From positions 1-64,000 of the forward strand of contig NZ_BKAJ01000030.1 of the NCBI RefSeq assembly GCF_007992495.1: 64,000 nucleotides of DNA, written 5' to 3'. Numbering within the stretch: position 1 is the stretch's first letter; the number at the start of each line of letters is the position of its first letter. A model generated the notes under the pieces. It had not been told where the DNA came from and searched no databases. It saw nothing but the letters and a program-made list of their open reading frames with translations. This document shows, one piece after another, positions 32,544 to 36,975 of this stretch. A program made the position numbers and the translations under genes. This DNA comes from Reyranella soli. Its GTDB lineage: Bacteria > Pseudomonadota > Alphaproteobacteria > Reyranellales > Reyranellaceae.

Positions 32544-33646
32544 TATCGCGCCCTTCCCAGGACGGACGAGCGGCCCCAGATCAGCCGGTTCGACACCACG
32601 AACCGCCAGATGACGTCGATGACCAGGCCGGTCGTGGCAGCGATGAAGGTATGGCCGTGCAGCTGCAGATAAGCGATCTGGGCGGTGCTGACGTTGGCCA
32701 CGATGCCGATCGAGGCGATCAGGCTGTAGAGCAGCAGTCCCTTGTAGAAGGTGGCGCCGCGCAGCCGGTCGTCCGAATAGGTCAGGACGTTGTTGATCGT
32801 GAAGTTGAAGACCATCGCCACCACCGTGGCGATCGCCTGGGACAGCCAGAACACGGCGCCGAGGTCCATGCTGGCGTAGAGGATGGTGAAGTGGAAGATC
32901 GAGCCGATCAGCCCGACCCCGACGAAGCTGATCAGCCGCGGCGGCAGCATGCCGCGAGACAGCTTGGAGGCGATGTCGCAGGCCAGCAGCCACAGCACGT
33001 AGAGATCGAGCTTCGATTCGCCATGCTGGCGGCGCTGGAACTCGAAGGGCAGCTCGCGGATCGTCACATGCCGGTTGTGATAGACCAGGTCGAAGAACAC
33101 CTTGAAGCCGTCGGCCTGCATCTGCGGGATGGAGTCCAGGAACAGCCGGCGCGAGGTGGCGAAGAAACCCGTAAGGGGATCGCTGAGCGTCGTGCCGAGG
33201 AAACGATTCGTCAGCCGGTTGCCCCAGTCCGAAAGACGACGACGACGCTGCGACAGGCCCTTTTCGGCGCCACCTTCGAGGAAGCGCGAGCCCGAGACGA
33301 TGTCGTGCCCGGCCTGCAGGGCCTCGAGCATCTTGGGGATCAGCGCGGGCTCGTGCTGCAGGTCGCCGTCCATGACGACGATCACCTCGCCGTGGGCGGC
33401 CTGCACCCCCCAGTGCACCGCCGAGGCGAGGCCGCGCTCCTGGACGCGCTGGATGCACCTGACATTGTCGTGTTGCCGAGCCAGCGCGCGCACCGCATCG
33501 GCCGTGCCGTCGGGCGAATCGTCGTCGACGACCACGAGCTCCCAGGCGCGGCCGGCCAGCGCCTGCGCCAGGCCGTCGTAGGTCATCGCGATGTTGCCCG
33601 CCTCGTTATAGGTCGGCACGACGACCGAGATCTGCGGCACCGTCAT
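32543..33646 (-). CDS. Glycosyltransferase family 2 fused to GtrA-like membrane domain
   Basis: A 367-residue protein. Residues 1-230 are a dolichol/polyprenyl-phosphate mannose synthase-type GT2 domain (ISVVVPTYNEAGNI; DDDSPDGT; metal-binding MDGDLQHEP; the GFFATSRRLF stretch). Residues ~240-367 are a four-helix GtrA domain. The enzyme should load a sugar on polyprenyl phosphate on the cytoplasmic face and help flip it. The ATG overlaps the methyltransferase stop (ATGA). Confidence 0.9.
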   Translation of the reverse strand: MTVPQISVVVPTYNEAGNIAMTYDGLAQALAGRAWELVVVDDDSPDGTADAVRALARQHDNVRCIQRVQERGLASAVHWGVQAAHGEVIVVMDGDLQHEPALIPKMLEALQAGHDIVSGSRFLEGGAEKGLSQRRRRLSDWGNRLTNRFLGTTLSDPLTGFFATSRRLFLDSIPQMQADGFKVFFDLVYHNRHVTIRELPFEFQRRQHGESKLDLYVLWLLACDIASKLSRGMLPPRLISFVGVGLIGSIFHFTILYASMDLGAVFWLSQAIATVVAMVFNFTINNVLTYSDDRLRGATFYKGLLLYSLIASIGIVANVSTAQIAYLQLHGHTFIAATTGLVIDVIWRFVVSNRLIWGRSSVLGRAR

Positions 33647-34350
33647 GGCCGGGCGACCGCAACCAGAAGGTTGCCACAACCAAGGTGACCGACGCTGCGC
33701 TCGACGGCGTCGAGCCATTGCGCCGGACCTCGGCCGAACACAGCGGCGAAAGGCGCGAGGCCGACGGCCGTGCCGACCTCGACCTTGGCGTAGCCGGCCT
33801 GAGCAAGATCCGCGGCGAGCCGCCCTCGCCAATACTTGTTGATGTGCTGCTGCTCGTAGCTGACGCGCGAGACGCGGTTCACGCCCCATTCGATCAATGG
33901 CCACAGCGAGCGATAGTTGGGGGTCGTCACGACCAGGCGTCCTTGCGGCGACAGCAGCCCGCGCGCCTCGGCCAGCAGACGGCGGGCATCGGCCGGCGGC
34001 AGATGCTCCAAAAGCTCGATCATGGTGATGGCGTCGAAGCGCTCACCGAGGCTGGCGAGCATTTGGGTCGAGAAACGATGCTCGGCCGTCCCGTACCGCC
34101 GGTTCGCGTAGTCGATCTGCGAGGCGCTGAAGTCGATGCCCAGGCACTCGACGCCGCCGAGGTAGTTGCCGATGAAGGTGCCGGGCCCGCAGCCGACATC
34201 CAGGACCTTGCCGACCCCGTCCAGGCGCTTGGCGACCGCGCGGAACTTCAGGTCGTGCCAGAAGAACCGTACGCCCGCCTTGCACTGATGGATCTCGTCA
34301 TAAAAGCCCGCCGGGATGTCTCTGTCGTAGTCGTAACCAGGAGTCGCCAT
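33643..34350 (-). CDS. Class I SAM-dependent methyltransferase
   Basis: A 235-residue methyltransferase. The SAM-binding motif I is VLDVGCGPGTFIGNY, motif II includes ITMIELLEHLPP, and motif III LSPQGRLVVTTPN. The start MATPGYDYD has GAAGAGG close upstream; two other Met codons lie up to nine codons earlier. First gene of the three-gene operon with GT2-GtrA and the large membrane protein, so it may methylate a sugar or lipid-linked glycan. Confidence 0.88.
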   Translation of the reverse strand: MATPGYDYDRDIPAGFYDEIHQCKAGVRFFWHDLKFRAVAKRLDGVGKVLDVGCGPGTFIGNYLGGVECLGIDFSASQIDYANRRYGTAEHRFSTQMLASLGERFDAITMIELLEHLPPADARRLLAEARGLLSPQGRLVVTTPNYRSLWPLIEWGVNRVSRVSYEQQHINKYWRGRLAADLAQAGYAKVEVGTAVGLAPFAAVFGRGPAQWLDAVERSVGHLGCGNLLVAVARP

Positions 34351-34403
34351 CGCCTCTTCTCGGGCCATGGCGATCATTCTACACGGATTCGCGCGTGAGC
34401 GCT

Positions 34404-34446
34404 CATTGTTGGAGCGCGGACCTCCAGGTCCGCGCGCCGGCAAGAT
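34404..34446. repeat. Palindromic intergenic element, copy 3
   Basis: Perfect 10-bp inverted repeat GCGCGGACCT-CC-AGGTCCGCGC (34414-34435), followed by the tail GCCGGCAAGATT ending at the stop codon of the minus-strand gene at 34447. It resembles the copies at 3-57 and 45885-46030 and probably terminates or protects that gene's transcript. Confidence 0.7.
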
Positions 34447-35007
34447 TCACTTTGCCGCCGGTTTCTTCGGCACCATGCAGAAGCCCTGCGCCTCGATGCC
34501 GAGCGGTGGATTGAACTTCGAGCGGAAGTTCTCCATGGCAATGGCCGCCGTCAGCTCGACGATCTCGGCCTCGGTAAAATGCTTCTGCAGCTCAGCGAAC
34601 AGCGTGTCGTCGACCTTCTGGCCGGTCGTCGTGATGCGTTCGGCATATTCCAGCGCGGCTCGCTCCAGGGGGCTGAAGAGCTTGCTGGTGCGCCACTCGA
34701 GCACCTCGCTGAGTTTCTCGGCGCCGCCTTCACTTTCCGCCGCACGGGCGGAATTGATGTCGACTCAAAACGGGCAGCCGTTGATGGTGGCGACGCGCAG
34801 ATAGACCAGCGGCAGCAGCGCCTTGGGCAACAGCCCCGACTGCTCGATCGACTGGCCGAGGATGGCGGCGGCGCGCAGGATCGGCGGGCAGTGCGCCATC
34901 ACCTTCGCGGGATTGAGCAGGCCGCCGTAGATCTCGCGCTGCCTGTCGAAACTTGCCTTCAGGATCGGATCACCGCCGTCTTCTTCGATTTCGCTGACGC
35001 GAGGCAT
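34447..35007 (-). CDS. Putative selenoprotein: carboxymuconolactone decarboxylase/AhpD-like, CxxU motif
   Basis: One continuous reading frame of 186 residues interrupted only by a TGA at codon 81 (34765-34767). The N-terminal 80 residues end INGCPF; after the TGA the frame continues VDINSARAAESEGGAEKL. In this family the motif is INGCPFC(I/V)D, so the TGA stands exactly at the second redox cysteine, giving Cys78-x-x-Sec81. Everything downstream keeps family character (ERAALEYAERIT, AEIVELTAAIAMENFRSKFN). Shine-Dalgarno GGAGGAG precedes the ATG. A 7-bp hairpin with GU in its loop follows the TGA at SECIS distance. AhpD-like selenoproteins are known. The alternative is a nonsense mutation; selABCD elsewhere in the genome would decide. 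Confidence 0.68.
34735..34753 (-). promoter_or_regulatory. Candidate bacterial SECIS hairpin
   Basis: In the transcript, bases 12-30 after the UGA form a perfect 7-bp stem UUCCGCC/GGCGGAA with the five-base loop CGUGC. The loop GU is 20-21 bases after the UGA, the same distance as the loop GU in E. coli fdhF, and within the range known for SelB-binding elements. The hairpin lies inside the coding sequence, as bacterial SECIS elements do. High local GC makes some hairpins expected by chance. Confidence 0.55.
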
Positions 35008-35145
35008 GATGCTCCTCCGTTAGTGGGGGCTGCCAAGCTACCCGCGTCGCTTGTGAGGGAGCGACCGAGCTTTTCTCATGCGGCTCCGAAGGTGATCGAC
35101 GATACCATCAAGAGAAGAACAACACCGCGCGGGACGGAGACCGAC

Positions 35146-36387
35146 ATGACACGGGCAAACGGCTCGGCCTATGGCTGGGTGATCGTCGCGGCAGGTGCGC
35201 TCATGACCTGCGTCAGCATGGGCGCGATGTTCTCGCTCGCGGTCTTCCTGCAACCGATCTCGGTCGACACCGGCTGGTCGCGCACCGGCATCTCGACGGC
35301 CATGACCATCGACTTCCTGGTGATGGGCTTTGCCGCCTTCGCCTGGGGCGCCATGAGCGACCGCTTCGGCCCGAAGATCGTCGTGCTGTCGGGCAGCCTG
35401 ATGCTGGGGCTCGGCCTGGTGCTGGGCAGCCGCGCCACGAGCCTGGTCGAGTTCCAGCTGGTGTTCGGCATCCTGGTCGGCGCGGCGGCGGGCGCCTTCT
35501 ACGCGCCGATGATGGCGCTGGCCTCGGGCTGGATCGAGAACAACCGCAGCCTCGCCGTCGCCCTGGTGTCGGCCGGCGCCGGCACCGCGCCGCTCACCGT
35601 GGCGCCGTTCGCGCGCTGGCTGATCGACAATTACGACTGGCGGCCGGCCATGCTGGTGGTGGGCATCGTCGCCTGGATCCTGCTGATCCCCGCCTCCTTC
35701 CTGGTGCGCCGCCCGCCGGTCGTGCTGGAGACCAACCCGCCCGCGCCGGGCGTCGCCACCCCGGTCGCGGCAGTCGTCGAGACGCGCATGAGCGCTGGCG
35801 AGGCGTTGCGCACGCCGCAGTTCGCCGTGCTGGCGCTGGCCCACTTCGCCTGCTGTGCCGCCCATTCCGGCCCGATCTTCCACATGGTGACCTACGCCAT
35901 CGGCTGCGGCATCCCGGCGATGGTGGCGGTCAGCGTCTACAGCCTGGCTGGCCTCTCGGGCCTCGGCGGGCGCGTGCTGCTCGGCGTGCTGGCCGACCGG
36001 CTGGGCGCCAAGCCGGTGCTGGTCGGCGGGCTGATGGTGCAGGCCTTGGGCGCCGGCGCCTATCTGTTCGCCCGCGAGCTCGGCGAGCTCTATGCCCTGT
36101 CGGTCGTGTTCGGCATCGCCTATGGCGGCGTGATGCCGCTCTACGCCATCCTGGCGCGCGATTATTTCGGCCCGCACATCATGGGCACGGTGTTCGGCGC
36201 CATCTCGGCCATGGCGAGCCTGGGCATGGCGTTCGGACCATGGGCCGGCGGCTGGGTGTTCGACACCTACGCGAGCTACTCGTGGCTCTACATCGGCTCG
36301 TTCACCGTCGGACTCGCGGCCGTTGCCGTGGCGTTCACCTTCAAGCCGGCACCGGCTGCAAGCAAGCTCACCGTATCGGTGTCATAG
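35146..36387 (+). CDS. MFS transporter (monocarboxylate/OFA-like)
   Basis: A 413-residue inner-membrane protein with 12 predicted helices. Major-facilitator signature between helices 2 and 3: GAMSDRFGPKIVV; repeated in the second half as GVLADRLGAKPVLV. Layout and helix sequence resemble oxalate/formate or monocarboxylate MFS proteins; the substrate is unknown. ATG after GGAGACCGAC. Divergent from the putative selenoprotein gene. A decayed copy of the C-terminal end of a close relative lies at about 44540-44632. Confidence 0.9.
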   Translation: MTRANGSAYGWVIVAAGALMTCVSMGAMFSLAVFLQPISVDTGWSRTGISTAMTIDFLVMGFAAFAWGAMSDRFGPKIVVLSGSLMLGLGLVLGSRATSLVEFQLVFGILVGAAAGAFYAPMMALASGWIENNRSLAVALVSAGAGTAPLTVAPFARWLIDNYDWRPAMLVVGIVAWILLIPASFLVRRPPVVLETNPPAPGVATPVAAVVETRMSAGEALRTPQFAVLALAHFACCAAHSGPIFHMVTYAIGCGIPAMVAVSVYSLAGLSGLGGRVLLGVLADRLGAKPVLVGGLMVQALGAGAYLFARELGELYALSVVFGIAYGGVMPLYAILARDYFGPHIMGTVFGAISAMASLGMAFGPWAGGWVFDTYASYSWLYIGSFTVGLAAVAVAFTFKPAPAASKLTVSVS

Positions 36388-36975
36388 CCGTGCCGCGCAT
36401 GCATCGCCGTCAGCGGCGCTGAAGCTTGCGAAGTCCTGGCGCGCGGAGGGGTTAGCGCAGTTCCCGCAGTTTGCGCTACCCCTCTGCACCTCTGATCGCG
36501 ACGGCAGCACCGGTCCCAGTTGCCTCATTTTTGAGCCCGCGGGGTTTTCCGCATCTCGCGCATTTTGCGCTACCCCCCCTGGGCACCGTACGCGATCAAC
36601 TGACCCGCGCTGTGACGCGCGAGCACAGTCGGCCCTCGCCGGGAAGTCCCACGCGTAATTGAGTCTGATCAACGATGCAAAGAGCGATAGCCGAGCCAAA
36701 GTGTAGGACAACACTGTAGTGCTTGTCAATAACTATGGTATTTTTGCGCTCCATATGGGGCCCAGCAGCGCACTAAGTCGATGCCGCCGCCTGCTAGCAG
36801 TGCTAGCGCCCACGCCGAAAACGCCTAACTGCGAAAGAACCGCGCGAAGGGCCCGACGGGGTAGTTCGCTGGCCATATGGCGGTGGCCGAGACATAGCCG
36901 GGCGCGCCGGCAGTGTTATAATTGGCTTGGCCGTAGATTGCGCGTGTACACGCCCGTGTGGAGGTTGACAGGTAG
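36388..36975. other. Long gene-free region upstream of glnS
   Basis: 588 bases without a credible gene. The first part has the hairpin at 36446-36484 and a partial second copy of its right arm (TTTTGCGCTACCCCCC, about 36565). The middle (about 36650-36760) is distinctly AT-richer than the rest of the window and contains an imperfect dyad ACAACACTGTAGTGCTTGT (36708-36726) that could be an operator. The composition change just before glnS could mark an insertion boundary. No clear promoter pair was found. Confidence 0.5.
36446..36484 (+). terminator. Strong hairpin after the MFS gene
   Basis: GAGGGGTTAGCGCA pairs with TGCGCTACCCCTC (13 pairs, one bulged T) around a 12-base loop, 58 bases past the MFS stop. 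There is no T-run, so intrinsic termination is uncertain; it could also be a dispersed repeat unit because its right arm recurs about 95 bases later. Confidence 0.45.

Follow-up and report, generated by a model that had tools for sequence, protein, structure and literature searches.

A stretch of 64,000 nucleotides of Reyranella soli DNA (assembly GCF_007992495.1, contig NZ_BKAJ01000030.1, positions 1 to 64,000; hereafter the window) carries a gene at 34447..35007 that we read as a genuine selenoprotein of the CMD fold. Its in-frame UGA would be decoded as selenocysteine (Sec) by the cell's own machinery under the direction of a hairpin within the coding sequence, and the product would be a thiol/selenol oxidoreductase. 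We give this reading a probability of roughly 0.86.

The coordinates given in the original prediction were right, and the strand, which had been left unstated, is minus. Translation with TGA as U yielded 186 residues followed by a final TGA. The 187-codon frame runs from 35007 down to 34447 and is broken only by the expected TGA at codon 81 (34765..34767; INGCPF-U-VDINSA), which places Sec in the motif Cys78-Pro-Phe-Sec81 and leaves 105 residues downstream of it. The predicted ribosome-binding site was also found, as GGAGGA at 35013..35018, 5 bases 5' of the ATG. Pfam CMD (PF02627) matched the protein at 47.1 bits (gathering cut-off 23), which together with the predicted fold described below supports the proposed AhpD/CMD kinship; among the 19 CMD matches of the R. 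soli genome, the window gene alone has an in-frame TGA. Eight neighbouring genes were scanned and included MFS transporter, methyltransferase and glycosyltransferase families, none of which gave a functional hint. Gene-neighbourhood clustering likewise produced no usable link, being dominated by overlapping reading frames in a chained cluster.

Relatives were then compared at codon 81. Of 193 genomes searched, 75 matched and 69 had a copy at 60–99% identity spanning codon 81, each of the 69 having at least one TGA form. Named species with a copy include R. massiliensis (L060) and R. aquatilis (L085). These copies correspond to 70 loci, of which 69 passed a motif filter that fixed CPF and allowed TGA, TGC or TGT at codon 81; all 69 have TGA. 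The 70th (L184 1676-2176, genome G043) has TGA at codon 81 too and otherwise keeps the frame. The filter did not pick it up, since it lacks what follows the TGA, hairpin included, perhaps through gene damage or faulty assembly. With near-identical copies counted once, 71 distinct full-length Reyranella-type genes were obtained. All 71 read CPFU at codon 81 and run to 180–189 residues. The proposed check of close homologues for TGC or TGT returned TGA at 70 of 70 loci. Comparison of the window gene with 70 relatives gave a median dN/dS of 0.20 over codons 1–80 and 0.23 over the last 78 codons up to a conserved QGFC motif. The part after the UGA is therefore under purifying selection and held as protein, in line with the claim that the frame stays family-like for 105 residues.

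These values bear on whether UGA-81 is an ordinary stop, produced by decay or sequencing error in a pseudogene. The R. soli assembly is a 9.85 Mb draft in 409 contigs with 3.42% contamination, and single copies elsewhere look damaged: L184, and L123 (3001-3400), a copy from the phylum Methylomirabilota whose frame breaks shortly past the hairpin through gene damage or assembly error. Against such a reading stand the selection downstream of the UGA and the occurrence of TGA at the same codon in all 71 Reyranella-type genes and in 30 of 30 Methylomirabilota genes. Conservation of the UGA across two phyla refutes it, and we regard its probability as negligible.

Distribution was extended with a pattern-based scan of one genome per species (84,980 species), which need not be complete and in which the closest relatives were from Reyranella and Rhodospirillales. 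The scan gave 75 loci, comprising 47 with TGA, 26 with CPFC and two (L124 and L126) that end short of codon 81. The CPFC forms are all at or below 45% identity to the window protein, and 25 of the 26 enter the counts given here because the remaining one (L122) was missed by the motif filter. The aligned site is Cys, within CPFC, in all 25 of these distant homologues, which bears out the statement that TGA takes the place of the second Cys of the motif. Within Methylomirabilota, 48 of 95 genomes gave a match; 30 loci were read for this clade and all 30 are CPFU, while 13 weaker matches were also fetched, of which the filter recognised six. Among the sequences covering codon 81 (71 Reyranella-type and 30 Methylomirabilota), no Cys orthologue of the CPFU clade was found. 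In a midpoint-rooted tree of 91 rows, which sampled 28 of the 71 Reyranella-type genes and contained one weak deep branch (83/71) and long-branch warnings from treekit for L111, L098, L121 and L187, the CPFU genes of both phyla formed one group (100/99) that excluded the Cys forms. Within it, the Reyranella-type genes were nested as a group (98/97) among the Methylomirabilota ones, a branching order that suggests transfer between the phyla.

The hairpin described in the original prediction was confirmed at 34735..34753, from +12 to +30 after the UGA. It has a 7-bp stem (UUCCGCC/GGCGGAA) closed by the loop CGUGC at 34742..34746 (+19 to +23), with G at +20 and U at +21. By itself this structure says little, because an equally long helix arose in 8.1% of synonymous recodings of the window gene, which is not significant. 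The signal exceeds chance once relatives are included, since the UGA is conserved, the stem covaries and the frame is kept. Over 72 genes, namely the 71 Reyranella-type genes and L123 (53 distinct 36-base rows), five of the seven pairs have changed on both sides and 86.0% of cells pair; 54 cells carry double changes, compared with 13.2 after shuffling and at most 17 when the stem was slid along the alignment. A perfect helix of at least 6 bp occupies the fixed place in 69 of the 72 genes (69 of 73 if L184 is counted), whereas 300 synonymous recoding sets yielded 5.1 such genes on average and 13 at most. Elsewhere in these genes, 91 of 10029 in-frame places satisfied the same helix test, as did the fixed place in one of the 25 Cys homologues (L108). 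The exceptions among the 72 are L088 and L091, with 5-bp stems, and L093, with a mismatch.

The main stem forms are UUCCAGC/GCUGGA (28 genes), UUCCGUC/GACGGA and UUCCGCC/GGYGGA, and in eight of the 72 genes the register is shifted and the loop has four bases. RNAalifold, applied to all 72 rows of the raw alignment, returned only the three inner pairs, a result that we attribute to the mixed registers. In the loop, all 72 sequences have G at +20, and 71 of them have U at +21. The Arg codon that supplies these bases is CGT in 68 of 69 cases, compared with 75 of 762 Arg codons elsewhere in the same genes, and loops in which Arg is replaced keep GT, as Ser AGT (two) or Gly GGT (one). The Methylomirabilota loops read CGGG (12), CGUG (11), AGGG (5) or CGCG (2, each with a different hairpin); the constant base there is therefore G, not U. 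The Methylomirabilota loci L207 and L217 lack the usual hairpin and contain another of 7 to 10 bp with loop GUC at +23, a candidate for a shifted SECIS. A search of 33000-36500 with Rfam matched no SECIS model, its sole match being a chance microRNA (E 4.4). The structure is also visible in the protein: residues 87, 89 and 90 vary in step with the RNA stem (codons 87–90, window 34738-34749), and AGC at codon 87 is accompanied by CUG at codon 90 in 28 of 28 genes. RNA structure is thus seen shaping protein sequence.

The original prediction had proposed a genome search for selA, selB, tRNA-Sec and selD, with absence of selB and tRNA-Sec counting against it; all four were found in the R. soli genome. 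selB (462.9 bits) lies directly before a tRNA-Sec (RF01852, 72.4 bits, above cut-off) that was confirmed by ARAGORN with anticodon tca; a second match above cut-off to the same model is a tRNA-Ser according to ARAGORN. selA (559.5 bits) and fdhE lie upstream of the selB/tRNA-Sec pair, and selD scored 374.6 bits. Further upstream on the same contig (C87), ahead of FDH gamma, fdhE, selA, selB and tRNA-Sec, is an FDH-N alpha frame (L195 7753-10500; TIGR01553, 1285.6 bits against a cut-off of 814.2) with one internal TGA (ARI-U-HGPTV), which is expected to be a second selenoprotein of R. soli.

Across genomes, selB above cut-off was found in 67 of the 69 with a full-length TGA gene versus 21 of 124 others, counts in which related genomes are not independent; it was also found in G193 and G194, the two genomes tested from Methylomirabilota. 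Two genomes, G018 and G046, have the TGA gene but neither selB above cut-off nor any selA match, and G195 has a TGA copy with neither selA nor selB above cut-off. The missing genes may be assembly gaps; because all three genomes are drafts, gap and gene loss are indistinguishable in them. The copy in G195 is L093, the gene with the stem mismatch, and may reflect a gap, misbinning or a decaying selenoprotein.

Two further readings of the codon can be weighed against these data. If UGA-81 were a real stop separating two proteins, the standard code would give ORFs of 80 and 85 residues, and both are present on the minus strand (34765..35007 and 34447..34704), the second starting from an internal GTG. 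This arrangement is very improbable, however, given that the codon is conserved exactly, that the Cys homologues are a single continuous CPFC frame, that the hairpin accompanies TGA in 69 of 72 genes but Cys in only one of 25, and that the Sec machinery co-occurs with the gene. For decoding of the UGA as Trp or Cys by a near-cognate tRNA, no supporting evidence was found. The covarying hairpin and the presence of tRNA-Sec and SelB speak against it, as does the Cys at this site in 25 of 25 distant homologues, and we consider it even less probable than two proteins. Since the position of the UGA is unchanged among relatives and the hairpin is retained in nearly all of them, the small AhpD-like protein with UGA in its redox motif is very probably a genuine selenoprotein, belonging to a general kind known before. 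Judging from conservation and genome content, UGA-81 would be decoded as Sec via SelA, SelB, tRNA-Sec and SelD, with the hairpin and its apical G, starting 12 bases past the UGA, directing the event.

The predicted structure was used to place the active site. An AlphaFold model of the protein (pLDDT 86.6, pTM 0.83) is an all-helical CMD/AhpD fold, in which Cys78 stands directly before a helix comprising residues 79–90 and Sec81 lies in its first turn. The structural matches of the model were PA0269 (2o4d, Z 21.1), Atu0492 (Z 20.3), Bmp8 (Z 19.3) and Mycobacterium tuberculosis AhpD (Z 11.6); beyond AhpD/CMD proteins, the VIA-align list was notable only for Sestrin2 (Z 14.4). PA0269 and Atu0492 (2o4d, 2ijc, 7xw1 and 2gmy; Z 20.3–21.1) share the fold at about 30% identity and have the redox motif in the same place, but their motif is CAYC or CAFC rather than CPFU. 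They also retain a His at the fourth position past the second Cys, a site occupied by Asn in the window clade.

This difference is relevant to mechanism. The proton relay of AhpD comprises a Glu that stands 12 residues ahead of the first Cys (E118 in M. tuberculosis AhpD) and a His located four residues past the second (H137). The second Cys, whose place Sec81 occupies, is presumably the attacking one. At these relay sites all 71 Reyranella-type genes have Pro, Ala or Ser for Glu and Asn for His, and neither Glu nor His was found there in any of the four sets compared (134 sequences); the Cys forms also have Asn at the His site. In these residues the clade differs from AhpD alkylhydroperoxidases in the mechanistic sense. 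The CxxU thiol/selenol peroxidase-like activity put forward in the original prediction remains plausible in its general form, and its strict AhpD form is weakened because the Glu and His sites are not conserved.

By analogy with CxxC proteins of the AhpD type, Sec81 would act as the attacking selenolate and Cys78 would resolve it. A third redox partner may be Cys177 (codon at 34477..34479), which is invariant in 35 of 35 aligned sequences and forms part of the C-terminal QGFC motif. All 71 and all 30 Sec forms in the clade have this motif, as do 24 of the 25 Cys forms; it is absent from all eight members of a sister CEFU set, six of which have Trp at the Cys177 site. From these features we favour a selenol/thiol oxidoreductase whose substrate would be a peroxide or another small electrophile.

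An alternative within the selenoprotein reading is that the enzyme is not a peroxidase at all and is instead a selenol-based reductase of some other electrophile, for example a reductive dehalogenase resembling Bmp8. The absence of Glu and His from the relay sites is consistent with this, and the Bmp8 debrominase (6ohi, 6ohj), which combines the CMD fold with CxxC and matches the model over most of its length, was the best Foldseek match by E-value (TM 0.77–0.79). Bmp8 is, however, Cys-based where the window protein is Sec-based, and is only 22–24% identical to it; PA0269 and Atu0492 are slightly closer by Z, and no halogen-related family was present among the eight neighbours scanned. We therefore think a Bmp8-like or other non-peroxidase reductase unlikely, if worth keeping in view, and retain the broader oxidoreductase reading.

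At neutral pH, Sec needs no Glu/His relay to be ionised, and it could be that Sec makes the AhpD relay dispensable here. This is only a suggestion, because the Cys forms also lack the relay. A bolder proposal is of an obligate-Sec clade of the CMD fold in two phyla (Reyranella-type Alphaproteobacteria and Methylomirabilota), which would have dispensed with the AhpD Glu/His relay, would use Sec, Cys78 and Cys177 for chemistry closed to a Cys version, and would have its post-Sec residues dictated by the hairpin and not by the protein. Taken as a whole, we hold this proposal only tentatively and think it rather more probably wrong than right.

The gene was also compared with known families. None of the NCBIfam models listed for the window protein reached its cut-off. 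The nearest was NF053654 (GroundWater_YciW, YciW-related (seleno)protein), which matched over the full length at 133.3 bits against a cut-off of 310; four clade-mates scored 121.8–156.3 bits, and in the sister CEFU set L232 passed (339.8) and L235 scored 237.0. TIGR01926 (peroxidase-related enzyme) gave 47.2 bits against 81.8, and TIGR00778 (AhpD core domain) 26.1 against 27.8, a cut-off that some relatives pass. Two models that represent AhpD-related CxxU selenoproteins in a 2026 table (PMC13188914) were also distant: NF041238 (AhpD_rel_CFYUT) gave 16.2 bits with the window protein (cut-off 175), and NF041047 (GSU3128) 22.8 bits with the relative L202 (cut-off 110).

The statement that AhpD-like selenoproteins had been described in metagenomes agrees with a 2005 report (PMC1088965). 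Papers of 2005 and 2008 described AhpD-like/CMD selenoproteins with CxxU from the Sargasso Sea and GOS sets (PMC1088965, PMC2398784), and reviews of 2022 and 2026 tabulate them (PMC9312934, PMC13188914). As described there (COG2128; TIGR01926 in the 2026 table), they resemble the window protein in being AhpD/CMD-like, in having CxxU and in having widespread Cys homologues (PMC1088965, PMC2398784, PMC9312934, PMC13188914); the comparison with the 2005 proteins is one of descriptions, not of sequences. On that footing the clade is a further member of the AhpD-like CxxU selenoproteins, the kind described in 2005 (PMC1088965). According to the 2026 review, 63 selenoprotein genes are predicted in one Methylomirabilota genome (PMC13188914); CPFU genes may be among them. 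In the open-access literature searched, no paper on this gene was found for Reyranella or Rokubacteria, and on YciW-related selenoproteins only the 2022 review (PMC9312934).

The gene points to an environmental bacterial lineage in which a small redox protein contains selenium; a gene caller working with the standard code would truncate this protein at residue 80. Its hairpin, which lies within the coding sequence and varies over 72 genes, is a natural data set on local SECIS needs, the stem being free as long as it pairs and the G of the loop being fixed. Because Cys orthologues are absent among the sequences seen, the question of what Sec does that Cys cannot is directly testable in this clade.

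Two Reyranella genomes carry, at about 1450-2050 of the respective loci, a second CMD gene with an in-frame TGA, reading WNGCPFU-QDVN in L187 (G047) and WNGCEFU-MDAN in L188 (G019). In the tree both cluster with the CEFU genes, a set whose other members come from Methylomirabilota. In L188, a frame for an ArsR-family regulator (HTH_5, 35.2 bits) lies directly upstream of the second CMD gene.
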